Source of the DNA: Ascidia mentula
Lineage: Eukaryota > Chordata > Ascidiacea > Phlebobranchia > Ascidiidae
Direction: 5' to 3'
DNA length: 64,000 bases
Assembly (NCBI GenBank): GCA_947561715.1
Contig: OX387200.1
Coordinates: 22,012,501 to 22,076,500, forward strand
Shown in pieces: positions 1,770-27,389 of this stretch. The notes below the pieces were generated by a model. It did not search any database and was not told the DNA's origin. It saw only the letters and a program-made list of their open reading frames with translations. Position 1 is the first letter of the stretch, and every line of letters starts with the position of its first letter. The translations under genes were made by a program, and so were the position numbers.

Positions 1770-4700
1770 ATGCACTGTGGTAATGAAGGTAAGAATGTTT
1801 ACAAGTTTGTATAAGAAAATCAAATGGTTGTACATTGTTGCTTTAGAAACCTCAAGTGGAAGCACAAAGTATAGAAGAGAACCCGTACAGATCATTAAGC
1901 CACAGGAAGGAGGCGGTTACTCCATCAATGAAATTGAAATTGGTCGAATTTTTGGAGACCAGGATGTCGCTGACACCCCAGTTGCAATCTATTCCATTGC
2001 TGGAGCTTTCAGAACAGGAAAATCATTCATGTTAAACTTTTTCCTGCGATATTTGTGGGCAAACCAAAAGAACAAGGTAATTTTTATTGCTAACAATTAA
2101 CCGTTTGCATGTATTAATGTTTGCATGAAGGTGGATGATTGGCTTTCGTCCAAAGAAGATCAACTGATTGAAGGTTTTCCGTGGAGAGGAGGAAAAGAAA
2201 AACATACAGAAGGAGTTTGGATTTGGGATGAACCGTTTTTCTTTTATACAGCAGGGGGCAAGGTAACAAATATTCCGCGTACCAAGTTTGGTCTATTTTA
2301 AAAAAATACAAGGTTATGATTTTTGTTTCATTACGAATTTTATTTAATATATGCGTTGTTGTATGTGATCTGAAAGGCAATCGCTTGTGTCTATAGACGA
2401 AGTTTATTCCATTCAAAAATTCTGGTATGTTTCATTGATAGATTGCATTGTTCCTCATGGACACACAAGGTGCATTTGATCACGACACAGACATACAAAA
2501 AAACTCAGTTATTTTTGGAATGAGCACACTTATGAGTTCTGTCCAAATTTACAACGTGAAAAATGAAATAAGAGGCGACACTCTCCAGCACTTACAAGTT
2601 AGTTCAGAAAATATTATTGCAAAAACGCATTACGTTTATGTTTTATTTGACAGCTGATGACAGATTTTGCACAAACTGCCAAGCAATCATTTGCGAGGTC
2701 AATCATAGAAGCTTCGAAAACAGGTCTTGAGAACATTTACAAAACGGGAAAAGCATTATTTACCGGTACGTCAGATGCGGATCATCCACAAAGTGACGAC
2801 CAAAGGCCATTTCAGGTTAGACTTGTAGCGTTATTGTTAATTACTGTCTGAGCGTTGCATTTTTATATTTCTTTTGACGAAGATTGGTAAAACCACAATA
2901 AAAAAGGCCAAATAAAAATTATTAACAGACTAAAATTTCAACTGCTCTCCGTTTGTTTGAGTCTAACGATTGGCGGATTTTTGAACTATAAACAATATTT
3001 TAATGACAACGTTGATTAAATATTATGCAAGCCCAAAGTTATGTTTAATATCAAGCAAAAGTCGCAGCCACTGTTCTTTTGGATTTTAAATGGGAATCCA
3101 CTTGGAACCAGCAATATTGTCCTTGTGTAAACACTGCCCGGTGTCCGACACAGTGCAATAATACATTACGTGTTGTTAAATTAAGTGCAACAAACTCAAA
3201 TTCGTATAAGAGAACATCAAAAGAACGCAACCGTCGGTCACATTTCACATCCTGCTGGGCCATAATGTACGTCATGGATCCAAGTTTCTATTCGTTCCAC
3301 TAGAGAAGAGCTTATTGTCTCAACCTGATACGGCTTTCACTGCCTAATTCAGGGGTTCTTAACCTGGGGTCCATGAACCCCCAAGGGGTCCGAGAAGATG
3401 CATTTAGGGGTCCATGAAACGAAATACAATTATTCTGAAAATCCCCGACAAGCAGACAGCTAAAAGCTAAAATTATCATTGAAAAAAGTTTCTCTCTGGG
3501 TTTAACTGTTGTACGTGCGTGCTAGTGTTTCGACCATCACTATGTTGATTAAAACCTAACTTCGACATTTGCAATGCGTTTCTTGCAAAGAGGTCCATAG
3601 CTTTTCAAAGAATGTTTTAGGGGTTCGTGATCCAAAAAAGGTTAAGAAACACTGGTCTAATTGAATTAGGAACATTCATATTTTCATTGTAATTATGATC
3701 ACAGTGATTGGTTACCTTTCATATGCAGAACATGATCTTTCTGATTCGTGATTGGTCAGACCCAGATTACAGTCTTGACTTTGAAGGAGGGAAGGAAGTT
3801 TTAAGAGAGGTTCTTGGAAAAAAGTCTGAAAACCCTAAAATTGAATCAGTTCGAAAACACTTACGGGATTCATTTGAAAGCATTTCATGTTGCTTGATGA
3901 AATCTCCTGGAGAAACAGTGACGTATAGAAGCCAAAAACAAGGAAGCAATTTGTGTATAAAAGGTATTAAGCAAAATATCTTACACATGCAGATGTCTTT
4001 GTTATTTTGAAATTTGATGTGTATGTATTTTTTTGTATTTGTTTGTGTTTCATCCGTTAACACACAAAAAATTACAATTACATTTGTAAAATCACACATG
4101 GTTTGTTACCTTGACTACATGTAGAATATTTTATAAAGACTGATATTAATTGATAAATACGCAAATTATTTCAGATGTAACGAAGGAATTCTTAACCACA
4201 CTTGGCATTTTGGTGAAAGAGATTTTTTCCCCGGAACGGATTGTGATAAAAAAAAGTCCATAAAAGTCCAGTTACAGGAAAAGATTTGATTAATTTTACA
4301 CTGTCTTACTTTCAAATATTTGACAGTGATACTATGCCGGAGTTGAATAATATGTTGCAGGTAAGAATGGGCTCTCATAGAAAAAGATAAAGTATCGAAT
4401 TTGTATCGGGACTTTTCAATACAAAACTTTTGTAAAATAATATAATGACTGTGACCTCTGGATGAAAAAAATTAAACTTTTGTTTAATTTGATTTAAAAT
4501 CACTAGTATGAAATATTTGATGCCTCGCATGCAGATTGCATATTTTAAAATGCAGCTCTTATGGTTCTACAGGCTGCAGCAGGTGTTGGAATTTTGCAGT
4601 GTATTAGCGATTGCAAAGCAACCTACAAAAATCAAATGCTAAAAGTTGGTGTTCTGTATTATTAAAAAAACTTGCCATTAAACAGGTTGTGTTTTAGATT

Positions 4701-7049
4701 TGTCAAAAAGGATATCTGAAGGAAAATGACTTCAGAAGACACCATGAGACACTGAAGTCACAAGCTATAGCAGATTTTGATCAACGACCAAAGTTGGGCG
4801 ATGAGGAATTCATCTTAAAATATCGAAAGCAGTTGGAAGAAAGCATTCATATGGAATTTTGTGTGTTTGAGCAAATTAACCGAACTAAAATGGTTTGTAA
4901 GAACATGTAACTTTCTGAACCATTTGCAATATAAGTTAACGTAAGAAATTAATCTTCTCTTTGTTTTCTGCTTCCTTCCAAGCAAGTACAAAAAATTTCA
5001 AAAAAAAAATTTCAACTATCTACTGTACAAACATTCTGGGAATCATTTCCCATTCTGTTGCAATTTGGCCCTGAAGATTTCCACCTTATTATATATACCC
5101 TGAAACGAAAGTTTCTTAGACAGTTACTATACAAACATATATTAACGTCGGTAAAACAATATTTGTCAGGAACAACTGAAACAGGAAACTAGAGTCGCAA
5201 TGACTGAAGCATTGGAAATATACAAGAGTTCACTGAAAGAAGTATGTATATCACAACGACACCCATAAAAACAACGATTTTTCACATTTTTGTGAATTAA
5301 CGAACTTTTTCAATTAGCCAAAAATTGCTTTATGTAATGTGACTGTGTGTTTATTTTAAAAAAACTTATTTCAATCAAGTAGCAATTTTATCAAAGGCTT
5401 TTTTACTCTCGGCGATTATTACAGAAAAGACTTTCCAGCCACCTTTTCCACTTGCTAGTGGCTGCATATTCATGCATTAATCACGTCTTGATCAAAGAGT
5501 CAATGCTGCTGAATTATCAAATAGGAATAGTAGGGATTTCTTATTTTTCTCTAAATCTTTATCATAAAAACAGACATTTTTATATATTGCCGAAGCCAAA
5601 CATATCTGTGTAAATTTGTTACACGGCAGGAAACGTTTGGAAAGTACGTTACCCAGGAACTATTGGAAGACTTTTCAGAAACGTTAACAACAAAATCTCT
5701 TGACCATTACACAAAACAAACAGTAGACATCCCCGAAGATATTGCGAATCTTTGCAAACTTACACTCCTCAAATCAACTGAACTTGAGTTTAAGCGTGTT
5801 ATGGAATCCAATGATGAGGAATATGTAAGTTTAAACTTGCATTAAGTGGCAATTTGGTATTGTCATAGCTTTCTTAGTTATGCAGTAACTCAATCTTTTT
5901 TAAAGGAAAAATTACATTTTCATCTTGAAAAACTTCAGAAAACTGTAGAAAAGTACAAGAAAACATTGCAAAAGGTAAGAATGATTTTTCAATAATATAG
6001 CTAGTTTCATTTTACTTTTTTTTTTTTTTTTTTATTCAAAGTAATACGTATAGGTAAATTGATGAAGTGTAAGAAAAAGAAACATAATGCCGTTCTAGTT
6101 TGCGGTGAACTTTGTTTGTAGGCAACACAAGAATACGTGGATGAGGATGAATTGCAACGATTTGATATGAAGGAAAGGAAAGAGGCCCGTGTTTACCTAA
6201 AACAATTGTATTCGAGAGATCAACAGGAAGTTGGCGATTCAATACTAAATAAGTTGGAACGTAAAATGGAAGAACATTACAACCTGGTCAAAGAACAAAA
6301 TGCACACTACAAGGTTAGTACGTTTTACGTTTAGCATTTCATGGCGCACAGTCGTCTGTTCTTCTTGTTTCTTTGGCAAACAGAATGTTTTAGGAATAAC
6401 ACAATTCTACACGAGAATACAAAATTACATCAAAATTTTGCTTTTTGTGCAGCTGATGCTTGAGGAGCAAGCAGAACTAATTTTGCAAGAGAACATGGCC
6501 AGCTATTTAATTGAAATGAAAGAAGTAAGTAACACATATGGATTTAATTCTTACTACATAGCAGTATTAAGATTTTATCTTCGTTTATTATGTCCCCAGT
6601 TGGTTGATGGAAAATACGTTGAGCCTTCTCTTCTAAAAGATGCTCACAGCAGAATGAAACAGAGAGCAGAAGATATCTTTTCTTCAAGATTTAAAAAAAG
6701 CCCTTCAAAAATCAAAAATGCATTTGTGGCAAAGTATAAGCAGAAAAGCCATAATATGTTCCTGCAAATTCAGAACTATAACAATAACAACAAGCACATT
6801 TTTTTGAGAAAAATAGGAGGGTTTTTCGTTGGCACTTTCAAAGGATTAGGGGAAGGTTTTATAACAGGGGCAAGAGGCGGAGCAGAAGTGGGCAGAACTC
6901 CACTTGGCCCGGCTGGTGTGGTGGCCGGGACGGTAATTGGTGCTCCTGTTGGCGCACTTTACGGTTTGCTTACAGGTGGTGTGCGTGAAGTGCAATCAAT
7001 TGGTGCCGGTTTTGAACCGAAGTCAGAGAATGAGCGTAAAGACGAATAA
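1770..7049 (+). CDS. atlastin/GBP-class large GTPase with four tandem middle-domain modules and a glycine-rich C-terminus
   Basis: A dynamin-superfamily GTPase of the atlastin/guanylate-binding type, which hydrolyses GTP to drive dimerisation and membrane work. My exon model is 1770-1788, 1847-2076, 2131-2262, 2442-2597, 2654-2815, 3729-3963, 4175-4360, 4573-4644, 4698-4892, 5170-5241, 5630-5824, 5906-5974, 6122-6313, 6453-6524 and 6600-7049, about 811 residues. Phases agree except for a one-base misfit in the A8 run of exon 7 (near 4248-4255). Visible motifs are P-loop GAFRTGKS (59-66), switch threonine in KHTEG (109), DTQG (134-137), and the atlastin/GBP RDW guanine-recognition motif (240-242). 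The start ATG at 1770 opens a 19-base exon whose phase matches exon 2. Exon 5 adds about 30 residues before the RDW strand. Residues 374 to about 727 are four repeated helical units; 735-789 are Gly-rich (GGFFVGTFKGLGEGF). No atlastin-type transmembrane hairpin is visible. It is closer to atlastin than to vertebrate GBPs by sequence. A paralogue with a lost function remains possible. Confidence 0.85.
3350..3654. mobile_element. hAT-like MITE, 305 bp, in GTPase intron 5
   Basis: The ends form imperfect inverted repeats: CAGGGGTTCTTAACC at the left and CAGTGTTTCTTAACC, read from the other strand, at the right. The flanks GCCTAATT (3342-3349) and GTCTAATT (3655-3662) are an 8-base target duplication with one mismatch, the hallmark of hAT elements. 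It has no coding capacity and depends on a transposase in trans. It shares its terminal motif with the element at 43392-43841. It enlarges an otherwise ordinary intron (2816-3728). Confidence 0.85.
4573..6794 (+). repeat. fourfold tandem duplication of a two-exon helical module inside the GTPase gene
   Basis: Exon lengths alternate as 72+195, 72+195, 69+192 and 72+(first ~195 of the last exon), all in phase 0. Each pair encodes a 23-24 residue helix followed by about 64 residues. The short exons share a Tyr-x-x-x-Met/Leu-type ending (ATYKNQMLK, EIYKSSLKE, EKYKKTLQK, ASYLIEMKE). The long exons share a G/E-K/x-Y-V/L start and a Leu-rich second helix (GYLKENDF, GKYVTQELL, EYVDEDELQ, GKYVEPSLL). 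Unit 1 aligns by eye with the three-helix middle domain of atlastin (compare AKDTYNKKMEEI and the FLAPNDL region known from human ATL1). Protein divergence between units is high, so the duplications are old. Confidence 0.75.
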
Positions 7050-10055: not shown

Positions 10056-13000
10056 ATGCGTTTATTTAATTTGTGCGCCATTGTCTGGTGCATGTTGTTG
10101 GTTTGCTGCTTTAAAACGGAAGCATCTGAGAGGACTTGTGCTGCGTCGTATGCAAGAAGACAAGCTTGTGCGAGCAGCGTTATCACCCGAGCACAATGTG
10201 AAAGAAGGTAAAATACATAAGGTTACGAAAATAAAAATACAATTGTAACGTAGCTATTAACGTTCTGAATTCCTCCACATCTGTGATGTTACAAAAATAC
10301 TTTAACCTTTCACAGAGATTGTTGCTTTGACGAAGAACCGAAAGATCAATCTATGCAGTGCTACCGTAAAGGTATAAAGTTTATAGCTTACTGCCTTGCC
10401 CAATGTGGGCCTATCATCTGTGCAGTCTAATATTGCCTATCTTCTGTGTAGTATTTTAGTTGTGACAGAGCAGGAAATACTTGCATAGGCCATGCTAATA
10501 AAAAATCTAATTCTGTAACAATAATACAGTTTTGGGCATCAACAGCGCTGAGTAAAATCGGGAGTTTTACATATAGTGGTCATAGAGGTTATGCGACCTA
10601 CAAATTCTGGTTGAATTGATGTTTTATTTTATCGATTTTGGTGAAAATTAAAGTTTGAGAAATTGGGTTTGTGGCATCCGATGTATTAAAAAATTCAAAA
10701 TTTTGTTTTCGCACTTTGAAGTGGGTGTGATTTTTAATACTCTATATTGGACGGAACAAAGAACAAATTTGAGAAACACTGATCGTTTTTAAATTAAATC
10801 GAGAACAAGAAAGGTAGTTTCCCTGTGAAGTATCAGATTTCAAATCAAAATGTTTTGTGACGGAAATTTATGTTCAACACAATTTTATCCGACAAAGTTA
10901 ACAAACAAAATCAACCCATAAATTGGCACTTACACACACTTTTGAGGTATTGGTATGGATTGAAATTAATCCCAAAACTACTGCTATTTCTCGTCGTATT
11001 TCTACGTGTGCTACGTCTAGTTTAACAGAACACAATTTTGCCTCTTGCGTATGTTTGAAATGTTGATTTGTTTGCTAGCCCAAGCAATTAAATTACTCAG
11101 TTCTTTCTGTATTTGAAATAAATTTTTCCACATTTGTGTTAGCAGCAATATCCCAATTACGAATAGTTTTCTGAAGTGTTTTTGTCTAGATTCAACTTCA
11201 ATACAATGCCAAGAAACTGGTGTGAGATGTGGTTTCTTTTTTTGCCCTACAAGGTATTGGAATAATGGTGGTTTTTATAAAGTGATAAGAATTAATCAAG
11301 TTTTTTCTTCAGGGAATTGTGTCAACTTTGGGGCTGTTGCTGGAATAACAATAGAGCAGCTTGTTTTTATCCTTCCAACCACAGTAAGATTTAACAAAAA
11401 ATGGTTTCTTGATTTTAATTTTTTTTTGCATTAATTTGTTTCACAGCATGTTCTTCTCCACCAAGCCTTGATGCTGGAACATATTCACCAATCAAAGATT
11501 CCTATGACCCAGCAAAAACTGTAACATATTCATGTCCACATCAAATCCAGGGTGATCCAATACTGACTTGCCTCAATGATGGAACATGGGACAAAGACAC
11601 TGCACCAGTCTGTTACAATACAAATGGTAAGTTTTTCGTCATTATAATACCTGTCTCTTGGGAAACGCATATATGGTAAAAAAAAATACAAGTTTTGATA
11701 TACAGCGTAGTCCCATATCTAAAAAAACTCCAACTTTTTCCTTCCACAAAATCCTTCCTCTCAAACCATTCTTAAAAGGGTCTTTATTATTTTTAGTATG
11801 CAACAAACCACCGAACATAGCTGCTGGCTCATTTACTCCTGTTCTGGATCAGTATAACTCTGGTGATATGGTTACATACAGTTGTTCTGATACTACAACG
11901 CACACACTGCTTGGAACTGCACAAGTTACTTGTAACAACAAAACTTGGAGTGAAATCCCTTTCTGTCATCCCAAAGGTCTGTTCATTAAATATGACTTGA
12001 GTTTTAAGAGCTTGTTGTAAAACGTTCACAAGTAGAATGTGTTTACATGATTTAATTATGGTGTGTTTAGGCTGTTGGGTAATAAAAACTATCAGCAAAA
12101 GTTTAATAAAATTGTGAGGAATACATCACATATTTGGAACTAATGACTGTTTCTATTTTAGAATGTTATTCACCTCCATTTATTGATGATGGTTCTTTTT
12201 TACCGGTGACTGGTGTTTATGCAAGAACAACACAAGTTACTTACTCATGTGATGATGGTTCAACACCAACTGGTACAACCATGAATACTTGCCAGGATGA
12301 TGGTACATGGTCTTTAACTGGTGCTTCATTGCCATCATGTCCTGCACGTAAGTATTTGTTAGTTGTTGTTTTTTTTGTGATATATAATAGGCTATTCATT
12401 AAAAACAATAATAAAAACATTGTGTTACACTTGAGATCAAATATGTTTTCTTGTTGGAATTTCCACAATGTTAAACCACGGTTAATGACATGTTTTTCAA
12501 ACACCACATATGTTATTTTTGTTGGAAGTTGCTGAAATCTTATATCACACAAACCATTAGTTTGCAGTTCTGTCACTTCAACCACTTGGTACCCATGGTT
12601 GTATATTAATAAATGTTGGTTTTGCTTTCAGTATGTTCTGACCCTCCAACTGTTACCAATGTGCAAAGTGTTACACCTTCTACCGGACCTTACTCATCAG
12701 CAGTAAATCCCACAGTAACATATGTATGTGCCACTGGTTATACCTTGGTAGGAAGTGCTTCAATAACTTGCCAAAGTACTGGAGTGTGGACTGAAAACCC
12801 ACAGTGCAGAGAGAATGGTAATTGGTTATATCAGTTTTCTGAAAATATTCAGGATTAAAGTAATTTTTGGTCATTGTGGTGCTAAAAAACGTTTATGTTT
12901 GTTTGATTTGAGCACATTTCTTAATACTGTTTTCATTTTGTTACTCAATGCTTTAATGTCAATAATACTTGCTAGGTTAATGGTGCATGGTCTGTAACTA

Positions 13001-14277
13001 GTGTTTCTTTGCCATCATGTTCAAGTTGTAAGTACACAGTGAACTGGTTTAGAAAACTTCTGTTTTTTGAAAAACTCTGCTATGACTTTTATTGATGTCC
13101 TATCTGCCTATTTATGTTATTCCAGTGTAAAAGTGAAAGGTCGTTACTCATATAATTATCTTTTTACAAAGTCTGGTAAAAACCCCAAAGCAACCTAACA
13201 TAATATATGAAGAAATAGGTTCAGAAAGTTTACCCGATTGCTCTGTTAATAATTTGCATCTAGGTGAAGTGATAGTTTTAGCAACAATCTTAGATATTTT
13301 TACGAATCACAAAATGTTGTCAGTACTGTAAATTAAATTCATTCATTTTTGAGCAGGCTGGTGTATAACAGCAAGCCTTAACTTTAAGATTAGACCACTG
13401 TCTGCATGGATAAGAACTGTTTATCACCAAAAATCTTTGGTAACAAAATATCAACTTTGTGTCTTTTTACACAAAATCCCAGATTGTATCAGCAATAATT
13501 TATTGTCACAGTTTGTGGCGAACCACCGGACATCGTGAACATGAACACTAAAACCCCATCCACTGGAATATTCTCCCCAACTTTAAATAGTACAGTAACC
13601 TACACCTGTGTTACTGGGTATGAAATATTTGGTTCAAGCTCCATAAACTGCCTAAGTACTGGATGCTGGGAGGCTAACCCTCAGTGTGGGCCTATCGGTA
13701 AGTAATGTTCATGCCTTAAACTGAGATTGAATCTCATGTGTTTTATTATTCTGCTATATGGCTTTTTGAGCAACATGTATTAGTGATTTTAACAAAACTG
13801 AAGCAATGGTTTGTTTGTTTGTTTCCACTTTTTAATTTTTGGTATCTGATGCAACAAACTTGATGTTGTTTTGTTAATGTGTGCCTTTGTTAAGATTTGA
13901 TTTCCACCATAAAATGTTTCTTCCAATCATGTATTTGTGATCTTCATGGTTTTAGTTTTTGTAGCGCATGCTTTGTAATGAATGGTTTTGGTCTTTCAAG
14001 AACTTATTTTTAATTTCACTCCAATACCAACAGTTTGTTATAAAATGTGAAATGTGAAGTGATTGTAAAACATATGTGTGTTTGTTTAGTGTGTGGTCCT
14101 CCACCAAACCAATCAGGAGCTGCAACAACACAGCACAGGCCAATCAAGGATATTTATTCACCTCTAGAAGTGGTCACGTACGAATGCACAACGGGAACGC
14201 AGGTTGGTTCGGTAGAACAAAACACTTGTCAACCAGATGGAACTTGGGAGTTCACAGTTATTAACTATTGTGGATAA
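10056..14277 (+). CDS. gene A: secreted protein with 2 trefoil and 6 CCP (sushi) domains
   Basis: Exons: 10056-10207, 10316-10371, 11190-11253, 11313-11383, 11447-11626, 11797-11976, 12162-12347, 12632-12817, 13512-13697 and 14090-14277; 482 residues. Phases agree throughout. The N-terminus MRLFNLCAIVWCMLLVCC is a signal peptide. Exons 1-2 give trefoil 1 (six Cys, CCFDEEP core). Exons 3-4 give trefoil 2, GCCWNNN then CFYPS, with a seventh Cys in FFFCPTR. Exons 5-10 each encode one CCP of 59-62 residues with four Cys and the late Trp; all internal CCP exons are phase 1-1. The last CCP ends NYCG and stop, so the protein is secreted with no anchor. Trefoil domains are typical of mucosal peptides and CCPs of complement and adhesion proteins; a recognition or mucus-associated role is inference. 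A decayed CCP exon sits in the intron after exon 8. Recent paralogue of gene B. Confidence 0.9.
12976..13027 (+). pseudogene. relic of a CCP exon in gene A intron 8
   Basis: The bases encode the tail of a DDGS-type CCP (NGAWSVTSVSLPSCS) and continue into TGTAAGTACACAGTGAACTG, the donor and intron start of gene B exons 17 and 19. The first two thirds of the exon are gone and no acceptor for it remains. Gene A therefore once had a seventh CCP here, in the same alternating order as gene B. Confidence 0.8.
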
Positions 14278-15641
14278 AACACATTGCAATCAAACGCAGT
14301 TTACCAAACAAATGCAACGTTTCATACAAACTTTATGATGACTCACTTTGAAATATTGATACCCGTATTATCAAGTGTTGTCTTTATTTCTAGCTCTATT
14401 CCAACATGTTACCGGTGACGTCATCCGCAAGAAAGGTCTGACCTAAAACATTTTGTTGTTCCATACTGACCTGAATCACCGCTTTAAATCAGTTTGTTAA
14501 ACAAGGCACATGCCATGAACTTTCCTATCACATTTACACCCCCGTCTTTCTGCCGCCTTCGCTAGTTATCTTGCTTGCTTTACGTCTTTCAACTTGCGCT
14601 ACTTCAAGTCTTTCCACAAATAAACAGAACATGCCTTTGGTCTCACAGATCGCTGTTTGGTCACAAAGATCAGAACTTTTGGTCTCACAGATCAGTTCAG
14701 ATCTCGAACTTGGGCCCGAGAACAGACCGTCGGTGATGGGACCTGCAGTCAGTATGGTGTCAGACTGGGTCTTGTCAACTTGATGTTGGGTAAGACGCAA
14801 GTATCAAACCATCTGCGTCCCTTTATGTTTGGTGCTCATGCCATCTGTGATCTCGAACCCAACGCCAAGCTTGCATTGTTTCCTTTCTTTTAGTCACAAA
14901 ACGTGTTTCTTAACTTTGCTTTCAAGTAATTTTACTGCAGGTTTGTTAACGCACGTCGACAAAATGGTAGTTTGTAATTTTTTTTTTTACTGCGTGTTAT
15001 AACGTCATCACATAATGTTATGCCAGGTATGTCTACATGCTTCAAGCAAGCGGACCAAAGTGCCGCGATGTATTGACTCATTTTAGCAAGCCTTCACAAC
15101 GCGAGAAGCAGGACACCAGAAAAAAATCTGCTTTAGGCAAGGGTTTAGACACAAAGGCAGAAATGAATCTCCACACAAATTTTCCAAACAGCAGCAAAAG
15201 TTTGAGTCAAACGTGCGTATATTGGTCCCATTGGCTGCTTTTAGTGCAGAGGATTGGCTCCGGGAATTTCGTCTTTCATAGGCTGTTAGCGGAGTTACAC
15301 TAACCTCTGCAACGCTGTCTAATAAAAAGAGGATTTTTTGAGGTCCGGTTTGGGACGAAAAGGGATTGACGTTTTTTATGTAAATGAAAAGACGGACGAC
15401 CTGGTCGTCTTCCTGATAGGCACAAGGCTTGCGGAAGCCTTTGCCTTGGCACCAGTTCAACGAGCAGCACAAAAACGAGGTGCACGCAGAAAAGGCAATC
15501 GCGACGCATGTCACGGTTCGTTAAACACGCAGTAGTTACTACACCATCTTGATATTCATTAACCCCTAACACACTCATATATGACCTGGTTAAAACATAA
15601 GATAAAACACCTCAATAGGCGAACTTTAAAAAAAAATAATC
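14278..15641. other. intergenic between genes A and B
   Basis: No gene recognised. A 13-base motif GGTCTCACAGATC occurs at about 14639 and 14681. The stretch 15320-15535 is GC-richer and open in plus-strand frame (65 codons) but has no recognisable motif or splice context. Confidence 0.45.
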
Positions 15642-16321
15642 CTAAAATGCAGATTTGTGATGTTGTGTTAATCCCATCTTTTCTCTGCATTAAGAATTAA
15701 AATAAGTTGCCTCCAGAACAAATCCCGCAAGCTCCCTGCTTCCTCCAAATTCGTCAACCCCTTATTTACCCAAAACTATCAGATCAACTCCAGAGATGGA
15801 TTCATGGGAGTGGTTTAGTGGAACGACAAAGGTTGTACAAACCTGGCATACATATATGTGATCGTCGCAGTGTTCAAAGCATTTGCTTTATGTAGGATGC
15901 AATACCCGAGGTTCGACCACTGGTACATTTTGTCCGCCTATTACGTGCATAGATAGAGGGTTTGCCAAGCATCAGCAAGCAATCATTGGGTTGCGCAATT
16001 AGCTTTACACAAACACACAATATAATGACAATAGAAATTTACAACACGGGAAGAGGATGTTTGATCAATATGCATTGTTCAGATTTTCGGCGGTTTGAGG
16101 AAGTATTTCCCCGTAAACATGTTTTCCAGTTGGTATGATTGCGGTGTATAGTTACAACGTGTATGTTGAATGTGTTCTGTGTTCCAGCCTTGGACCGATC
16201 TTATGTGTAGAGGAAAGGATAAACGTTTATACACAAGGTTTTGCGTCTCCTAAAAGTTTGGGATTTTTTAGATCAAGTCGTGGGATAAGTTTGGTGAAAG
16301 ACGAAAAGGAACGCTGTAAGA
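15642..16321 (+). repeat. 5' flank of gene B, paralogue of the gene A flank
   Basis: Matches 9029-10055 without the hAT-like MITE and thereby supplies the empty site. The final 100 bases before the ATG are almost identical to those of gene A. Confidence 0.8.
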
Positions 16322-19300
16322 ATGCGATTATTTAATGTTTGCGCCATTGTCTGGTGCATGTTGTTGGTTTGCTGCTATAAGACGGAAGCATCTGAGAGGA
16401 CTTGTGCTGTGTCGTATGCAAGAAGACAAGCTTGTGCGAGCAGCGTTATCACCCGAGCACAATGTGAAAGAAGGTAAAAGACATAAGGTTACGAAAATAA
16501 ACATACAATTCCAACGTACCTATTCACTTACTGAATTCCTCCACATCTGTGATCTTACAAAATTACGTTTCCTCTTTCACAGAGATTGTTGCTTTGACGA
16601 AGAGCCGAAAGATCAATCTAGGCAGTGCTACCGTAAAGGTATAAAGTTTATGGTCTACTGCCTTGCCCAATGTAGGCCTATCATCTATGCAGTCTAATAT
16701 TGCCCATCTTCTGTGTAGTATTTTAGTTGTGACAGAGCAGGAAATACTTGCATAGGTCATGCTAATAAAAATCTAATTCTGTAACAACAGTTTTGGGCAT
16801 CAACAGCGCTGAGTAAAATCGGGAGTTTTACATATAGTGGTCATAGAGGTTATGCGACCTACAAATTCTGGTTGAATTGATGTTTTATTTTATCGATTTT
16901 GGTGAAAATTAAAGTTTGAGAAGTAGGTTTGTGGCATTAGAATAATTAGAAAATTAAAAACATTTTTTCGTCTTTTAAGTTGGTGGCGTCGTTTTTATTA
17001 CACCATTTTAAGGCGGAACAAAGAACAAATTTGAGAAACACTGATCTTTTTTAAATTAAATCGAGAACAAGAAAGGTAGTTTCCCTGTAAAGGATCCGAT
17101 TTCAAACCAAAACGTTTTGTGACGGAAATTTCTGTTTGACACAATTTTATCCGACAAAGTTAACAAACAAAAGCAACGATAAAATGGCACTTACACACAC
17201 TTCTGAGGTATTGGTAAGGATTGAAATTAATCCCAAAACTACTGCTATTTCTTGTCGCATTTCTACGTGTGCTACACGTCCCAACGTCCAGAACAGAACA
17301 CAATTTTGCTTCTCGCATATGTTTAAAGATGGCGTGTTGTTGATTGTTTGCTAGCCCAAGCAATTAAATTACTCAGTTCTTTCTGTATGTGAAATAAATT
17401 TTTCCACATTTGCGTTGGAAGCAATAGGGGAGACCGGGGATATACCTCGGACACGGGGATACCTCGGACCAAGTATTTTACGTCACAATTAGGTATTGTT
17501 AAGACACTTTTACAAAAGCTTTATGTCTCCATCAAACGTTAACAGGAACTTTGGAATTAAATCATGTCTGCTTAAAAAGTTATAATCGAAAAAGTCAATT
17601 TATTAGTGAAACCAAGTTTTTCAATTTGTATGTGGAAGGCTATATATCTGTCACAGTTAATCAAAATGCAGTAATTTTGGGTTGATTGCATAATCAAATA
17701 TGTATTCTTGGATAGGCCAATGATGATTTTGCCTAACCTTTAAAAATACGACCATAGTTTAAGAATTTCGATGTCGTCACGTGGTCGGGGATACTTCGGA
17801 CATCATGGCAAGAAATCGCAAAAAGGCAACAATTTTTGAGTTTTATGAAAAATTATCGGGCAGAGAAGAGAATAAACAGAGGCTGAATAAAATGATTGAA
17901 TTTCGGCAGTAAGAAAAAGTCCCAAAGATAAAAAATTGTTTGTTGACTCTAAAATCTATGATATCCGTGCTGCCGTTAAATGTACACGATTTACCCAAAG
18001 CATGAACGTGTGTAAGGGTGTCGAAACGATAAGTGGCCACGCCCCGATTCCTGAAAGCTTGAATAATATTTTATGCACTAATGCCCCAATGCTAATATTG
18101 CGCCAAGTTTGATTTCAGTTATTTGTTAAATAAACAAAAAAACGTCTGTTAAAACTTGCTGTCCGAGATATCCCCAGTCACGTCCGATGTGACCCCGGTA
18201 CCGGGGTGACTTCGGACATTTGAGACCTGTTTAAAAAATGGGCTGAATAAACATTTTTAGTGAGCTATAACGAACGAAAAACCTTTTGTTTTTTGAGTAA
18301 TGCTTTACTAGTTACAACAAAATACAATTTAAGAATGTGGTTCTTAAATTAAAAAAAATATGAGCAATTTTCCCAAAACCGTCCGAGCTATCCCCGGTCT
18401 CCCCTATCCCAATTGCGAATAGTTTTCTAAAGTGTTTTTGTCTAGATTCAACTTCATTGCAATGCCAAGAAACTGGTGTGAGATGTGGTTTCTTTTTCTG
18501 CCCTACAAGGTATTGGAATAATGGTGGTTTTTATGAAGTGATAAGAATTTATCAAGTTTTTTCTTCAGGGAATTGTGTCAACTTTGGGGCTGTTGCTGGA
18601 ATAACAATAAAGCAGCTTGTTTTTATCCTTCCAACCACAGTAAGATTTATTAAAAAATAGTTTCATCACCGTTTAAAGGCTTGCAAAAAAAGTTTTTTAT
18701 TCAATTTTAATTTTTTTTTGCATTAATTTGTTTCACAGCATGCTCTTCTCCACCAAGCCTTGATGCTGGAACATATTCACCAATCAAAGATTCCTATGAC
18801 CCAGCAGAAACTGTAACATATTCATGTCCACACCAAATCCAGGGTGATCCAATACTGACTTGCCTCAATGATGGAACATGGGACAAAGATACTGCACCAG
18901 TCTGTTACAATACATATGGTATTTTTTTGTGTTATGACACCTTTCTCTTGGGAAACACCTCTAGGGTGATAAAAACATAGAGTTAACATTTTGATGTGCA
19001 TTGTTGTCTCATATATTAAAAACCTAAAACTTTTTATGCACACTGCTTTATTTATTACGCCTCATCTTGCTAGTCAAGTGCGGTTGCTTGTTTAGTAGCA
19101 ATGATGTTTTAATTTATTGTTCATATTTGTTAATAAAAACAAAATTTGGAAAAAAAAAACCAGACAAGAATTTCGATCATGAAAAAATCCTTTCATTTCA
19201 ACCATTCTCAAAAAGGTCTTTATTAATTTTAGTATGCAACAAGCCACCAAACATAGCTGCTGGCTCATTTACTCCTGTTCTGGACCAGTATAACTCTGGT

Positions 19301-22300
19301 GATATGGTTACATACAGTTGTACTGATACTACAACGCACACACTGCTTGGAACTGCACAAGTTACTTGTAACAACAAAACCTGGAGTGAAATCCCTTTCT
19401 GTCATCGCAAAGGTTTGAATATTTGTAATTATTTGTTGTCTAAGCATTTACTTAAATTTCAGCAAAAAGTGTTTGAGATGGTTTTCACAAAAAAAGTTTA
19501 TTTTTGGACTTATTTCTTAAAACAATAACTTGAGCAAATTATTTTTTTTTACTGGCACACATTTCAGTGTGTACAAGACCACCAGACAATTTTTCATCTT
19601 CATACCAGTGCTTTTTTTAGTTTGTACAGATCCTTTTAATGTCAAAGATGCAACTTTTACAATCACACGTCCACCTGGAGCACCAGTTAATGTTCCCACA
19701 ACCACAGCAACATATACTTGTAACAGTGGATTTACAATAGTTGGGCCCAACGTTATAACTTGCCAAAATACTGGAGTGTGGACTATAAACCCAAAGTGCG
19801 AAAGTGTTGGCAAGTGTTTTGTAAAATAACTTTTTTCATGTTTTACCAGTGTATTTTTTAGTTTGTGCAGTTCCTTTTAATGTCAAAGATGCAACTTTTA
19901 TAATCACACGTCCAACTGGAGCACCAGTTAATGTTCCCACAACCACAGCAACATATACTTGTAACAGTGGATTTTCAATAGTTGGATCAGACACTGTAAC
20001 TTGTCAAAGTACTGGAGTTTGGACTGAAAACCCACAGTGTGAAAGTGTTGGTAAGTTTTTTTTTTATTGTTTTTTGTTCCTGTTTAACCAGTGTGTTTTG
20101 TAGTTTGTACAGATCCTTTTAATGTCCAAGATGCAACTTTTACAATCACACGTCCACCTGGAGCACCAGTTAATGTTCCTATGACCACAGCTACATATAC
20201 TTGTAACAGTGGATTTACAATAGTTGGATCAGACACTGTAACTTGTCAAAATACTGGAGTGTGGACTGAAAACCCACAGTGTGAAAGTGTTGGTAAGTGT
20301 TTTATAAAATAACTATTTTTCCTGTTTTACCAGTGTGTTTTTTAGTTTGTACAGATCCTTTTAATGTCAAAGATGCAACTTTTACAATCACACGTCCACC
20401 TGGAGCACCAGTTAATGTTCCCACAACCACAGCAACATATACTTGTAACAGTGGATTTTCAATAGTTGGGCCCAACGTTATAACTTGCCAAAATACTGGA
20501 GTGTGGACTATAAACCCACAGTGCGAAAGTGTTGGTAAGTGTTTTGTAAAATAACTTTTTTCATGTTTTACCAGTGTATTTTTTAGTTTGTGCAGTTCCT
20601 TTTAATGTCCAAGATGCAACTTTTACAATCACGCGTCCACCTGGAGCACCAGTTAATGTTCCCACAACCACAGCAACATATACTTGTAACAGTGGATTTA
20701 CAATAGTTGGGCCCAACATTATAACTTGCCAAAATACTGGAGTGTGGACTGAAAACCCACAGTGTGAAAGTGTTGGTAAGTGTTTTTTATAAAATTGTGA
20801 AAGAGTGATTTGTGAAAGAGAATGAAAGCAGTTTGTGATCTGTTATAACAGTAAAGGTGTGCCTTTAATAAAATATCTAAAATGGCAGACATCAAATACA
20901 TAGCCAGCATTTTCCATAGATGTTCTCTGCTATGGTTTCACAGCTTGTTAGCAGTTTATATAGACATTCTTCATTGAGTTGTTTAAAAGTTTTATACATG
21001 GGGAAATGCCTGTCCAACACTGATGTAACATTAACAAAGGTTTAATTGAATTTTACTATAAATTTGAGTATTGTTTTATTGTAGTTTGTTATTCACCTCC
21101 AGCGATTGAACATGGTTCCTTGGCACCAGTAGAAGATTTTTATACTGAAAATCAACAAGTTACTTATTCATGTAATGATGGTTCAACACCAACTTGCACA
21201 ACCATGAATACTTGCCAGAATGATGGAAGTTGGTCTTTAACTGGTGCTTCGTTGCCAACATGTCCTACACGTAAGTATTTGTTGTTGATCTTTATTTAAA
21301 TTATTTATAAAGTTATTTGGCTGCAAATTTTGAAATGCATTAAGTAAGCGATAACTATCAATGAGCATTGTTTATACATAAAGAACATCCATGCATAAAG
21401 TTTAATGAATATATGACACATTTGTTGTAAGGAGTTTTTTTGTGAAAATCTCACCATTCCAAGTCAGTAGTCAATGTTTACATTGCTGCACACTCAAAGG
21501 CACTTTTGCTGTGATTAACTAATAATTAAATACATTATAAATAATCCTTCATGTTTACTGTACTGGTTATAAAAACACCTTTCATGAATATACCGCTCTT
21601 ATTATATCCATATTAATTTGTTTAAAATACGTTTTACAATTAATTGCTGTCACATTTTTGGTATCACTATGTGCCTGTAATAATGTTTTATCATCTCATA
21701 TCTGCATTTCAGTATGTTCTGACCCTCCAACTGTTAGCAATGTACAAAGTGTTACACCCTCTACTGGACCTTACTCATCAGCAGTAAATCCCATAGTAAC
21801 ATATGTATGTGCCACTGGTTATACCTTGGTAGGAAGTGCTTTAATAACTTGTCAAAGTACTGGAGTTTGGACTGAAAACCCACAGTGCCAAAGTGTTGGT
21901 AAGTGTTTTTTTGTTGTTGTTTTTTTCCTGTTTCACCAGTGCTTTTTTTAGTTTGTGCAGATCCTTGTAATGTCCAAGATGCAACTTTTGCGATCACACG
22001 TCCACCTGGAGCAACAGTTAATGTTCCTATGACCACAGCTACATATACTTGTAACAGTGGATTTACAATAGTTGGATCAGACACTGTAACTTGTCAAAGT
22101 ACTGGAGTGTGGACTGAAAACCCGCAGTGTGAAAGTGTTGGTAAGTGTTTTTTATAAAATTGTGAAAGAGTGATTTGTGAAAGAAAATGAAAGCAGTTTG
22201 TGATCTGTTATAACAGTAAAGGTGTGCCTTTAATAAAATATCTAAAATGGCAGACATCAAATACATAGCCAGCATTTTCCATAGATGTTCTCTGCTATGG

Positions 22301-25300
22301 TTTCACAGCTTGTTAGCAGTTTATATAGACATTCTTCATTGAGTTGTTTAAAAGTTTTATACATGGGGAAATGCCTGTCCAACACTGATGTAACATTAAC
22401 AAAAGTTTAATTGAATTTATTGTAAATTTGTTTGAAAGTCAACACATGTCGGAACTGAGTATTGTTTTATTGTAGATTGTTGTTCACCTCCAGTGATTGA
22501 ACATGGTTCCTTGGCAGCAGTAGAATTTTTTACTGAAAATCAACTGGTTACTTACTCATGTAATGATGGTTCAACGCCAACTGGCACAACCATGAATACT
22601 TGCCAGAATGATGGAAGTTGGTCTTTAACTGGTGCTTCGTTGCCAACATGTCCTGCACGTAAGTATTTGTTACAGTTGTTGTTCTTTATTTAAATTTTGA
22701 AATGCATTAAGTAAGTAATTTTTGAAAACAAGCGATAACTATCAATAAGTATTGTTTATACATAAAGAACATCCATGCATAAAGTTTAATGAATATATGA
22801 CACATTTGTCGTAAGGAATTTTTGTGTAAAAGTCTCACCATTCCAAGTCAGTAGTCAATGTTTAAACTCAAATGCACTTTTGCTGTGATTAACTAATAAT
22901 TAAATACATTATAAATAATCCTTCATGTTTACTCTACTTGTTATAAAAACACCTTTCATGAATCTACCGCTCTTATTATATCCATATTAATTTGACTAAA
23001 ATACATTTTACAATTAATTGCTGTCACATTATTGGTATCACTATATGTGCCCGTAATAATGTTTTATCATTTTATCATTTCAGTATGTTCTGACCCTCCA
23101 ACTGTTACCAATGTGCAAAGTGTTACACCTTCTATCGGACCTTACTCATCAGCAGTAAATCCCATAGTAACATATGTATGTGCTGGTTATTCCTTGGTAG
23201 GAAATGCCTCAGTAACTTGTCAAAATTCTGGAGTGTGGACTGAAAACCCACAGTGCAGAGAGAATGGTAATTGGTTTTATCAGTTTTCTGGTTTCATTAT
23301 TGTGGTAAAACATAATTATTTCAATTTGATTTCTGTGAACAATTTCCTAATACTGTTTCCATTTTGTTACAATATGCTTAAAAGTCGATTATTTTTAGAA
23401 TGTTGTCCACCTCCATCGATTGATGATGGTTCTTTTTTACCGGTGACTGGTGTTTATGCAAGAACAACACAAGTTACTTACTCATGTGATGATGGTTCAA
23501 CACCAACTGGTACAACCATGAATACTTGCCAGGATAATGGTACATGGTCTGTAACTGGTGCTTTATTGCCGTCATGTCCAATGTGTAAGTACACAGTGAA
23601 CTGTTTTCAACAAATATGGGATTATTGGAAAAACGTTTTTATTTTGTTTTTGTCTTTTCGTCATATTTGTGTCTGGTTGAAATAAGAAATTTAAAACGCA
23701 TTACTTATGTAATTACCTTTTGATAACTGTGAACACTCTTCCATTACAATGAAACCATATTTAATTTTGAATTTTATTAATATTAACTTTACTTTCAGTA
23801 TGTTCTGACCCTCCAACTGTTACCAATGTGGAAAGTGTTACACCGACTACTGGACCTTACTCATCAGCAGTAAATCCCACAGTAACATACGTATGTGCAA
23901 CTGGCTATTCCTTGGTAGGAAGTACTTCAGTAACTTGTCAAAGTACTGGAGTGTGGACTGAAAACCCGCAGTGCAGAGAGAATGGTAATTGTTTTTATCA
24001 GTTTATCAGGTTTCTGGTAATTTTCGGTCATTATTGTGGCAAAAAAAATATATTTCAGTTTGATTTCCATCAACAATTTTCTTAATATTGTTTCCATTTT
24101 GTTACTATTTTTTTTTAGAATTTTTAGAATGTTGTCCACCTCCATCGATTGATGATGGTTCTTTTTTACCGGTGACTGGTGTTTATGCAAGAACAACACA
24201 AGTTACTTACTCATGTGATGATGGTTCAACACCAACTGGTACAACCATGAATACTTGCCAGGATGATGGTACATGGTCTGTAACTGGTGCTTTATTGCCA
24301 ACATGTCCAGTGTGTAAGTACACAGTGAACTGTTTTTGAAAAGTATGGGATTATTTGAAAAAAAGTATATTATTTTTGTCTTTTCGCCATATTTGTGTCT
24401 GGCTGGAATAAGAAATTGAAAACGCATTATTCATGTAATTACTTTTGACTACTGTGAACACTCTTCCATTACAATGAAACCATATTTAAGTTTGTATTTT
24501 AATATTATTAACTTTACTTTCAGTATGTTCTGACCCTCCCACTGTTACCAATGTGCAAAGTGTTACACCTTCTACTGGACCTTACTCATCAGCAGTAAAT
24601 CCCACAGTAACATATGTATGTGCCACTGGTTATACCTTGGTAGGAAGTACTTCAATAACTTGTCAAAGTACTGGAGTGTGGACTGAAAACCCACAGTGCC
24701 AAAGTGTTGGTAAGTTTATACCGAAGGTTGTGTTCGTGTGATTGACATTTGTTCCTCGTATTTAAAAAGCATTGCTTCCCCTTGCTCATTCAGTATGTCA
24801 CGATCCCGTGGAAATGCAAAATGCAACTTTTGAAATTAACCGTCCCACCGGAGAAACAGCTAATGTTCCCGGCACAAATGTCACGTACACTTGCTTCAAT
24901 GAACGTGGATTGATGGGCTCAGATACAGTGCTATGTGGAAGTGATGGGAGTTGGAACAGAATCCCTGATTGCCATTCCGTCGGTAAATACGTGAGATTTA
25001 ACAATATTACACGAACTGTTTGTTCTCGTATTTTGTCCGGATGTGATTTTTAATTTCTTAAAAATTTTTTTTAGAAAGCAATAATTACATAAATAAATTG
25101 GTGTACGTCTATTGCAATGCATTATTTGTGGTTTTTACATGTTTATAATTTAAGTTTGTTTGGTGACGTCAAAAAAACTGTTATGTTTTTAGTTTGTTCG
25201 GTTGCTGAACTGGATGTAGTGGCAGGAAGTTACGAAATAACTCATACTTTGTTGGGATTCACAAGCTTTCTTCCCGGCACTACTGTAAAGTACGATTGTC

Positions 25301-25446
25301 AACCAGATCATATTTTGAGTGGATCTGACACAGTTACTTGTAATGAGGACGGCAGATGGTCTGCAAAGCCCACTTGTATTCCATTCATATTTTTCTTCCC
25401 GAATCCCCTTTCTACTATTCCAATTCCAGTATTGACTTCAAAATAA
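16322..25446 (+). CDS. gene B: secreted protein with 2 trefoil and 18 CCP domains
   Basis: Exons: 16322-16473, 16583-16638, 18446-18509, 18569-18639, 18739-18918, 19233-19412, 19621-19809, 19862-20050, 20104-20292, 20346-20534, 20587-20775, 21085-21270, 21713-21898, 21952-22140, 22476-22658, 23084-23266, 23399-23584, 23799-23984, 24128-24313, 24524-24709, 24794-24982 and 25193-25446; 1253 residues with consistent phase. Signal peptide and both trefoils match gene A. Eighteen single-exon CCPs follow. Three subtypes recur: Z (ITRPPGAPVNVP), X (DDGSTPTGTTMNTC) and Y (SVTPSTGPYSSAVNP). Order after the first two is ZZZZZ-X-Y-Z-X-Y-X-Y-X-Y-Z-Z. The protein ends in a short hydrophobic tail after the last CCP (PFIFFFPNPLSTIPIPVL), too short for a clear anchor. 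Intron 7 has a GC donor (19810). All internal CCP exons are symmetric (1-1), so copies can be gained or skipped without a frame change. A 978-base element lies in intron 2. Confidence 0.9.
17427..18404. mobile_element. non-autonomous DNA transposon, 978 bp, TA target, in gene B intron 2
   Basis: Perfect 16-base inverted ends GGGGAGACCGGGGATA, flanked by TA on both sides (17425-17426, 18405-18406). Gene A intron 2 has the uninterrupted site (GCAATATCCCAATT near 11145), which proves the ends and the 2-base duplication. Variants of the motif CGGGGATACCTCGGAC recur inside near both ends. An internal 35-codon frame (17805-17912) starts MARNRKKATIFEFYEKLS, similar in feel to a basic transposase N-terminus, but too short to classify. 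The TA target suggests the Tc1/mariner-pogo group; the ends are not typical for it. Confidence 0.9.
19567..19596 (+). pseudogene. fragment of a lost CCP exon in gene B intron 6
   Basis: After TTTCAG the bases read V-C-T-R-P-P-D-N, the start of a CCP like gene C exon 9 (VCTRPPDI), and then break off into AT-rich sequence. It retains an acceptor-like site but no exon body. It points to a further CCP lost by deletion just before the Z array. Confidence 0.6.
19621..20775 (+). repeat. five-copy tandem array of a CCP exon plus its intron, period 241-242 bp
   Basis: Exon starts at 19621, 19862, 20104, 20346 and 20587 are spaced 241, 242, 242 and 241 bases. Each unit is a 189-base exon and a 52-53 base intron, and exons differ at only a few sites (KDATF or QDATF, GPNVITC or GSDTVTC). 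Sequence tags are shared out of order: copies 1 and 4 share GPNV and TINP, while copies 2 and 3 share GSDTVTC. That pattern fits unequal crossing-over or gene conversion. A sixth, displaced copy is exon 14 (21952-22140). Confidence 0.9.
20587..23266 (+). repeat. direct duplication of a three-exon Z-X-Y block in gene B
   Basis: Block 1 is exons 11-13 (20587-21898) and block 2 is exons 14-16 (21952-23266). The introns match over hundreds of bases, for example the stretch ending ACATGGGGAAATGCCTGTCC at both about 21000 and 22365. Period is about 1365 bases. Near-identity of intron sequence implies a recent event. Confidence 0.85.
23084..24523 (+). repeat. direct duplication of a two-exon Y-X block in gene B
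   Basis: Exons 16-17 with their introns (23084-23798) match exons 18-19 (23799-24523), period about 715-725 bases, including intron text such as AACACTCTTCCATTACAATG. The boundary coincides with the exon start, so the copies keep frame and splice signals. One Y copy (exon 16) is one codon shorter. Confidence 0.85.
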
Positions 25447-26455
25447 TTCAATAACAGCTAAAATTAGCTGCTTTACATGACTCATATACACAGATTTCAG
25501 TGTTGTACAACTTTCCAAGGGCATAATCCGATAGGCTATATTATTTGAATCTGGATTCGACGTAGTCCGCGTTTCGTCTGTGGTCTTTTGTTACCTGCAC
25601 TATCGCATTCCTCGTAGATACACGTGATAACTATTGTTATGTGTGCTCTAAAATAGAATATGATGTGCGAATTAAACAGCTGCTCACATGCTGTGAGAAT
25701 ATTTTACTAAATGCCGTGCCCAGGTTATTCAGGCCACAGATAATGAGGAAGATTGCATGTTCCGGTTCAAATGCATTACGTAAGTTTCCGGGCAAAACAA
25801 ATTCAAATAATGAGCATTTGGGGAGGTTTTAAGCCAATACCTTCTCTGGGCAGTGGTTCTAACGTCTGAGCAATATGAACCGTACCCCGGTCATTATGAA
25901 GCCACTGCCGTGCTTAAAACACATTATTATCCAGGCAATTATAAATCATACTGAGAGCATATGTCCTACCTACTTCATTAACCTTACTTTTTACGTCTCC
26001 TGAAAACAGTCACTTTAATTTGAAACTTAATAGCAACTAGAAGGAGTAATAGTAACTACCAAAGGAATAAGTAAAGTCTTTAAATTTGCTCGCAATAATA
26101 TAATCTGTGATAGTCACAAGTGGGCGTTTGATTATCGCATACTTCCAGATGTTTTGCACATTGTTGCTTGGTTTTGTGAAAAAATTAAGTGAAAATGCGC
26201 AAATTCAGTTGTATTTTGCAGAAATGAATTGTAAATGTGCACTGATTTGTGTTGTTGTGTGGCATTCTTACTTCTTCCACAGGTTAACTCTGAATATACT
26301 GGATACGAATTCCGATCAGGTTTTCTTCCAAGTAAGGTATATTCGTCGGATACTGAAACCACAAACCCTTTTTGCTCTATAGCGCTACCAATAAAAAGGG
26401 TTTATGCAAGTTTTATTACTCCGCAAGGTGGCGCTAATGTTTATGGACTTGAAAA
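25447..26455. other. intergenic after gene B
   Basis: No gene recognised. The stretch 26395-26450 (CTCCGCAAGGTGGCGCTAATG) recurs near 34165 and 41190, so it belongs to the same SINE-containing repeat block as the flanks of genes C and D. Confidence 0.5.
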
Positions 26456-26566
26456 CATGGGAAGCATATTCCCGACCCATATACCATGAAGAAAACCTGA
26501 TCAGGATTCGAGGCCAGGATATCCAGGGTTTAAATCCCGGTGTAGTCAAAGCAAATGAATAAATCG
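26456..26566 (+). mobile_element. tRNA-derived SINE, degraded copy
   Basis: CCTGATCAGGATTCGAGGCC followed by the T-arm-like B box GGGTTTAAATCCC and an A-rich tail. The A-box end is more degraded than in the copy at 40472. It is not a functional tRNA gene, because no cloverleaf with acceptor stem closes. Confidence 0.6.
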
Positions 26567-26934
26567 TGGTACGGTAATAACAAATGGATGAGGTACAAGT
26601 TGACCGACATGTTCCGCTAATTCTTACCTATTTATACTTTCGAGATGTCGAACTGTCTGCGTTCCAAAATGATTTTTGTTGCGATTGAACGAGTCCTGGC
26701 TTTTCATTCACACTTTTTGCAGCTTCTTTCATTCTAATCCAGGAGTTACAACCAGCAAGTACGCGGACCTGTGTACTTTTTAACATTTCTTCTTGGTTTC
26801 GTATCTCCGGCAAAATTCCATGTATACGTGAAGAGGTAAGCTTCATCACCTTGTGTGTCAAACTTATCCCGTTATGATTAAATGACACTACAATTTAACA
26901 AAACGTCGTAATAAACCGACACAATTAAAAATAA

Positions 26935-27190
26935 AAGTGATTGAAGTAGTTTTGTATGGGATAAGATGCAATATCTGGAAATCATAAAATTCGCCTACTG
27001 CCTATGTTTATACAGAAGGTATTGCTAACAGTAAACATTTATTGGAGTTAGTGATGAACAGTAAGCACATTGATTAAGCATGCTTCTATTGTTGTGCGAA
27101 CATACAGTTAATAGTAAAACAATTGTCATACAATAGAGGAGGATGCTTGAGTCAATGTGCATTGTTTCCAGTTTCCGTTTTTGTGGCAAG
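26935..27190 (+). promoter_or_regulatory. copy of the trefoil-CCP family 5' flank, now fused to a CCP exon
   Basis: The sequence aligns with 34525-34710 upstream of gene C (GATGCAATATCT, CTAACAGTAAACATT, ATAGAGG then GGATGC). In genes C and D this text is followed 250 bases later by the signal-peptide exon. Here it stops at about 27190 and continues directly into the middle of a Y-type CCP exon. The signal-peptide and trefoil exons were lost. Confidence 0.7.
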
Positions 27191-27389
27191 ACAGGCAAGT
27201 GTTACACCCTCTACCGGACCTTACTCATCAGCAGTAAATCCCACTGTAACATATGTATGTGCCTCTGGTTATACCTTGGTAGGAAGTGCTTTAATAACTT
27301 GTCAAAGTACTGGAGTGTGGACTGAAAACCCTCAGTGCAGATACGTTGGTAGTCTAAAAATGATATATTTCTTGTTTACTTCTATATAT

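Follow-up and report, generated by a model that had tools for sequence, protein, structure and literature searches.

Tandem copies of an atlastin-type middle domain in predicted GTPase genes of the ascidian Ascidia mentula

Atlastins carry a GTPase domain followed by a three-helix bundle, and excerpts of two papers (PMC10954664; PMC8688574) describe how these parts rearrange with GTP, such that paired bundles become parallel and tighten and the motion reaches the membrane. In guanylate-binding proteins (GBPs) the middle domain comprises two three-helix bundles with a common helix, alpha-9, according to an excerpt of a review (PMC9005921). Here we describe a gene in a 64,000-nucleotide (nt) stretch of Ascidia mentula DNA (GCA_947561715.1, contig OX387200.1, positions 22,012,501 to 22,076,500, forward strand; 'the window') that very probably encodes an atlastin-class head, four bundles (types 1, 2, 5 and 6, as defined below) and a glycine-rich hydrophobic tail. 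The gene occupies positions 1770–7049 of the + strand in 15 exons, with a putative ATG at 1770 and a stop codon ending at 7049. Exons 1–7 encode the GTPase part and exons 8–15 (4573–6794) the array.

An earlier note on this DNA had proposed a two-exon unit repeated four times behind an atlastin-class GTPase. Its coordinates and lengths proved exact: the exon pairs measure 72/195, 72/195, 69/192 and 72/195 nt, every one in phase 0, with an AG acceptor and open frame in 8/8 unit exons and a GT donor at 7/7 internal ends. The class assignment also stood. Using a query protein that was three residues short at the exon 7 joint, the head matched PF02263 at E 1.7e-51 (175.4 bits, cut-off 21.1), and atlastins in the PDB matched with E values down to 4e-75, in displayed alignments that stop at unit 1; over the head and first bundle the GBP entries among the PDB matches reached 4e-8 at best. 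Alignment with atlastins shows that the head keeps GAFRTGKS (including the P-loop Arg and Lys), WRGG, a threonine which we take to be that of switch I, DTQG and FLIRDWS, residues of such motifs having catalytic and guanine-binding roles in this class of enzyme. An insert of about 40 residues (query 188/190 to 228/230), encoded mostly by exon 5 and lacking a counterpart in the aligned atlastins, lies just ahead of the strand bearing the RD motif, and the same exon is found in the paralog L019.

Evidence that the units belong to one domain family comes from a sample of 38 loci, chosen from the PF02263 search described below (8), around tail matches, the window and neighbouring clusters (20), as gap fills (4) and from other clusters (6). 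A hidden Markov model (HMM) of the longer, helix-2/3 exon, seeded with the window's four units and refined over successive rounds on the fetched loci, to which it is therefore partly fitted, gave 147 matches at E≤0.01 in 39 sources (the 38 loci plus the window) and none in reversed DNA; 25 of the 39 sources contain at least one match at E≤1e-6. An earlier and unmatched control had returned 14 reversed rows (domain limit 0.01 with a looser whole-sequence limit) against 171 real ones at 0.1. Once matches shorter than 36 residues had been removed, 142 of the 145 in 19 assembled stretches could be fitted to an AG..GT exon, open and in phase 0, whose ends were to some extent a matter of choice, and 195 nt was the commonest length (50/142). 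For the shorter, helix-1 exon, 127 of 141 picks exceeded the score limit, and 113 of those 127 are 72 nt long. A count made independently of any HMM agrees, with 178 of 980 open AG..GT candidates measuring 72 nt, where the 12 other lengths average 67 each.

The relationship to atlastins extends beyond unit 1. An HMM built from two atlastins and window unit 1, searched against three sequences, found unit 4 at 5.9e-6, unit 3 at 0.008 and unit 2 at 0.03. Seven profiles were then compared, built from two atlastins and six unit types, with members picked by type after inspection of the tree described below and four low-scoring type 5 helix-1 exons added by hand. All 21 pairs aligned nearly end to end with the register kept within about 4 columns, and 20 of the 21 gave E≤2.2e-4 (types 1 and 5 gave 0.0051), while all 42 reversed controls were at 0.0078 or above. 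Similarity by profile, on whose presence the earlier note had let its proposal depend, was therefore found both between units and with atlastins. In fly atlastin, a chain of 541 residues, the match stops at residue 414. An AlphaFold model of the helix-2/3 exon of unit 2 (exon 2b; predicted local distance difference test score, pLDDT, 88) contains two helices, the second reaching residue 64 of 65. Among the 50 Foldseek rows listed for this model, ATL1 (6b9d) ranked top in both probability (0.57) and query TM-score (0.80), a result that is not significant taken alone; when the Foldseek candidates were realigned with VIA-align, ATL1 residues 374–438 came first by Z (7.6, root-mean-square deviation 1.8). 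GBP structures were absent from the displayed Foldseek and VIA-align rows, which proves nothing. A model of unit 4 and the tail that retained an intron was discarded (pLDDT 42), and Pfam rows for the array and tail (Gly-zipper_YMGG, RTX and others) all fell under the cut-off and were not used. Judged at the level of sequence, the four units are tandem copies of the atlastin three-helix middle domain.

The window gene is one member of a large family. A profile search of the genome (195.8 Mb, 79 contigs) gave 154 PF02263 matches, and merging the 150 of these that were listed, within 3 kb on the same strand, yields a lower bound of at least 107 GBP/atlastin GTPase loci, many of them clustered. 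A tree of 60 rows was computed from seven genes and two atlastins, leaving aside 12 of the 19 stretches and units 13–14 of L024+L031, which belong to the next gene; it is built on few columns and several of its supports fall under the tool's star. Within these limits most units cluster by position and not by gene, defining six unit types that recur in order. Type 1 (support 94/76) is the first unit in five array genes and the paralog, type 2 (97/86) includes window unit 2, type 5 (92/89) includes window unit 3 and type 6 (94/86) includes window unit 4. Type 4 (96/72) alternates mid-array with type 3, which is not a clade but lies within a 19-row set (87/78) that also contains type 5.

Written as types, the arrays read 1-2-5-6 in the window gene and in its closest paralog, L019/L009 (4 units); 1-2-3-4-5-6 in L038 and L023 (6 units, the sixth being weak at E 0.03 in L038 and read by eye in L023); 1-(2-3-4)x3-5-6 in L024+L031 (12 units); and 1-2-(3-4)x8-5-6 in L027+L032+L012 (C71:16929500-16955499; 20 units). 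In this last array no helix-1 exon could be located for unit 16, whose second exon is irregular, and a search for GTPase exons in L032 and L012, the two loci carrying most of the units, found none. Units 9–10 and 13–14 of the same array are 98% identical over 900 bases, which points either to duplication in the very recent past or to a repeat introduced by assembly. The orders are most simply explained by an ancestor with six units, types 3-4 having been lost in the window lineage and blocks amplified elsewhere, the direction of change being our reading of them. Two neighbouring GTPase genes, L016 (included in the tree) and L017 (left out), carry at least six and at least five near-identical units resembling type 1 and atlastins, and these arrays represent a separate, more recent expansion. 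The profile matches, the tree and the fold support for exon 2b together uphold four tandem middle domains as the earlier note had described them. Its further suggestion of a singular four-unit design held only in part: four units are present and the window gene shares the family's 72 + ~195 nt units, type order and Gly-rich tail, but it is a short 1-2-5-6 member among arrays of 4–20 units.

The window tail comprises about 80 hydrophobic, Gly-rich residues (Kyte-Doolittle mean over 19 residues 1.71; Gly 24%). It has eight matches in the genome, one being the tail itself and one that of the close paralog; the remaining six lie in a single cluster at C71:16.88-17.04 Mb. The 12-unit gene and L023 end differently but likewise in Gly-rich hydrophobic sequence, and across the five genes read to their ends the peak 19-residue hydropathy is 1.49–1.75 and the Gly content 17–24%; L038 lies outside this comparison, as its fetched DNA stops soon past unit 6. 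Also in the C71 cluster, at L015 7745-9065, a Gly-rich tail piece immediately precedes a partial GTPase and its unit 1, in what looks like a rearranged or truncated copy.

We assign a probability of roughly 0.6 to an overall explanation in which the array is a length-graded rod between the head and a membrane anchor, possibly serving in defence. Formation of a rod is the more secure part and is probable. Each unit would fold as a three-helix bundle, helix 3 of which would continue into helix 1 of the next, like the shared alpha-9 of GBPs, to give a stiff rod; in the model of exon 2b, which covers that exon alone, unit 2's helix 3 is predicted to extend as far as the end of the exon. If stacked end to end, 4 units would span ~13–17 nm and 20 units ~66–87 nm, estimated from predicted helix lengths of 22 and 29 residues at 0.15 nm per residue. 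We favour the tail as the membrane anchor, its hydrophobic sequence suggesting insertion. The heads would dimerise with GTP, their first bundles crossing over as they do in atlastin, and the dimer would then pull or hold the membrane, anchored by the tail, at a distance that depends on how many units there are. By analogy with GBPs, the clustering of these many gene copies and the variation in their array length suggest cell-autonomous defence in place of fusion of the endoplasmic reticulum (ER), a role to which we give slightly less than even odds. More tentatively, an animal lineage may have turned atlastin into a length-graded machine, with more than 100 GTPase loci, many with Gly-rich anchors and rods of 4–20 bundles grown by duplication of 3-4 or 2-3-4 blocks, forming an innate-defence arsenal whose reach or valency would depend on the number of units.

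Several observations weigh against this explanation. The four window units taken alone are, as far as their sequences go, barely alike: with 500 shuffles per pair, units 2 and 4 gave 0/500 and units 1 and 4 gave 8/500, and the other four pairs 40–212/500. Without the paralogs the case for a repeat is thin, and it is the paralogs that make it decisive for these predicted proteins. Arrays were also seen in only some of the six loci sampled outside these clusters. Five units at E≤1e-5 plus the weak sixth are present in L038, three at E≤1e-4 plus weaker ones in L037 and one clear unit in L033, while L034, L035 and L036 have no unit at E≤1e-3 within 6 kb. Arrays are thus common in the family but are seen in only part of the sampled loci. 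Furthermore, both known four-unit copies look damaged in the current assembly. Compared with the close paralog, window exon 7 has one extra base (~4248–4261) which breaks the frame; its counterparts, located by motif in paralog stretches, are in frame in 9 of 10 cases and also broken in one. In the closest paralog itself (L019+L009, C67:21951500-21986499) exon 14 is reduced to its last 26 bases, a remnant that adjoins exon 15 and is separated from unit 3 by ~26 kb free of units. The claim for the family stands apart from these two copies. A 10-nt tandem duplication was considered for the exon 7 lesion and rejected, the comparison with the paralog giving one extra base plus substitutions. A further member of the family begins within L031 8166-9585, and its counterpart of exon 7 likewise meets an early stop.

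These lesions give most weight to the possibility that the window gene has decayed and no longer functions, that only its longer relatives work and that the four-unit form is a deletion product with no role. The extra base in exon 7 and the cut exon 14 of the closest relative are both in its favour, as is the ratio of non-synonymous to synonymous substitution rates (dN/dS) between these two genes, which is 0.56 overall and 0.45 in the GTPase but 0.72 in the array. Set against this, the window gene has a single lesion in ~2.4 kb of coding sequence and its remaining exons are open with splice sites. The exon 7 lesion lies beside a run of A, where one-base differences are a usual form of assembly error; it may be such an error, or the window gene may truly be a null copy. 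The unit exons of the window gene and the 20-unit gene give dN/dS 0.45 at dS 0.77, and constraint on unit exons is supported more widely, with values of 0.21–0.81 in 12 comparisons (Nei-Gojobori, without a significance test), one comparison spanning ten exons giving 0.27 at dS 0.70 and two C71 comparisons giving 0.71 and 0.81. We regard decay as a serious possibility, though clearly the lesser one.

Next, the proteins could be ordinary tethers or fusogens of the ER or another organelle, with longer arms and no link to immunity. The kept GTPase motifs and a head and first bundle far closer to atlastins than to GBPs are what this would predict; the large number of loci, many clustered and of variable array length, is unlike the ER atlastins of other animals, which are few per genome, and we consider it unlikely. 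Slightly less likely is a multivalent scaffold, in which the bundles act as docking or self-assembly modules of a coat or lattice, with unit number setting valency and the types binding different partners. Six diverged types in constant order, and the amplification of 3-4 or 2-3-4 in both long arrays as if the types carried different contacts, can be read in this way; yet a rod built of differing units would look identical, and the amplified units of the 20-unit array are mostly close copies, which suits length equally. Finally, that the units are alike merely as charged amphipathic helices, by coiled-coil convergence, gains something from the four of six window pairs that do no better than shuffles but is scarcely credible given the in-register profile matches, the recurrent exon lengths and phase and the type-specific groups across genes, and the reversed-profile and reversed-DNA controls led us to reject both it and chance resemblance.

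The family would offer a natural series of same-class heads with 4, 6, 12 and 20 copies of the arm segment, in which lever, tether and scaffold models become testable by length. How GTP hydrolysis in the atlastin head drives fusion through the helical arm is disputed, as an excerpt of one paper indicates (PMC10954664). The family also bears on whether atlastins assumed defence roles in invertebrates without GBPs, a point not settled in the excerpted review (PMC9005921). Titles and abstract beginnings listed by searches of the open-access literature contained no report of tandem atlastin or GBP middle domains or of a tunicate GBP family, although one may exist elsewhere; a paper on ascidian tunic proteins mentions 'guanylate-binding protein' once (PMC7401272). 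The stacking of two bundles in GBPs is a precedent, and in these searches none was found for 4–20.

Table 1. Predicted exons and encoded features of the gene, in window coordinates.
Feature	Positions	Strand	Basis
Exon 1 (putative ATG and first 19 coding bases)	1770..1788	+	In-frame ATG, GT donor at 1789; short, least certain exon
Exon 2, GTPase, P-loop GAFRTGKS	1847..2076	+	Pfam GBP and atlastin alignments; splice sites
Exon 3, GTPase, WRGG and Thr aligned to first of atlastin TT	2131..2262	+	Atlastin alignment
Exon 4, GTPase, DTQG motif	2442..2597	+	Atlastin alignment
Exon 5, GTPase with ~40-residue insert	2654..2815	+	Gap between two aligned stretches
Exon 6, GTPase, RD motif FLIRDWS	3729..3963	+	Atlastin alignment
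Exon 7, GTPase end and linker, out of frame	4175..4360	+	Comparison with close paralog
Unit 1 (type 1) helix-1 exon, 72 nt	4573..4644	+	Splice sites, exon-length survey, atlastin alignment
Unit 1 (type 1) helix-2/3 exon, 195 nt	4698..4892	+	Aligned to ATL1/fly atlastin middle domain; HMM
Unit 2 (type 2) helix-1 exon, 72 nt	5170..5241	+	Splice sites, exon-length survey
Unit 2 (type 2) helix-2/3 exon (exon 2b), 195 nt	5630..5824	+	AlphaFold helical hairpin; ATL1 overlay
Unit 3 (type 5) helix-1 exon, 69 nt	5906..5974	+	Splice sites, exon-length survey
Unit 3 (type 5) helix-2/3 exon, 192 nt	6122..6313	+	Splice sites, HMM, tree
Unit 4 (type 6) helix-1 exon, 72 nt	6453..6524	+	Splice sites, exon-length survey
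Unit 4 (type 6) helix-2/3 portion of last exon, 195 nt	6600..6794	+	Splice sites, HMM, tree
Gly-rich hydrophobic C-terminal tail and stop	6795..7049	+	Same exon as unit 4 helix-2/3 part; tail matches, hydropathy

Elsewhere in the window, two further features on the + strand were noted by eye. Several exons resembling sushi (complement control protein, CCP) modules lie at ~11400–27200, with near-identical copies at ~11.8 and 19.1 kb, as in a complement-type or adhesion gene of repeated modules. At 27353–29742, open reading frames of 554, 226 and 153 residues with reverse-transcriptase-like text and a GIY-YIG-like motif look like a Penelope-like retroelement.

Among known systems, the vertebrate GVIN/VLIG proteins are very long, multicopy large GTPases; these names were absent from the Pfam and PDB rows for the window protein, and no dedicated comparison was made. 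Spectrin-repeat rods are built of tandem three-helix bundles with continuous linker helices and evolved by unit duplication, a likeness in tandem bundles from which the present proteins depart in having a GTPase head; no spectrin family appeared among Pfam rows to E 10, and the two were not compared directly. GBPs are alike in placing more than one stacked three-helix bundle behind the same class of GTPase and in forming gene clusters, such as the seven pig GBPs in one cluster mentioned in the review excerpt (PMC9005921). The earlier note had set the GBP helical domain apart as a different structure, which must be qualified, as GBPs do stack two three-helix bundles (the same excerpt). PF02841, the GBP helical domain, matches the window protein only below threshold (17.9 bits against a cut-off of 24.3; profile 4–119 of 297), at residues 340–458, that is in unit 1 only. 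A CaaX prenylation signal, which is not universal in GBPs, is absent from the window protein's C-terminus, ERKDE, and GBPs have two bundles where the present family has up to 20. The closest likeness is to atlastins (ATL1-3 and fly atlastin), which share GAFRxGKS, WRGG, DTQG, RDW and a three-helix middle domain straight after the head. Unlike them, the present genes belong to a large multigene family and carry the ~40-residue GTPase insert, and the single atlastin bundle is replaced by four in the window gene and by up to 20 in its paralogs. Where atlastins continue into a transmembrane hairpin and an amphipathic helix, the window gene has units 2–4 followed by the Gly-rich tail, which, from its average hydropathy, might take their place.

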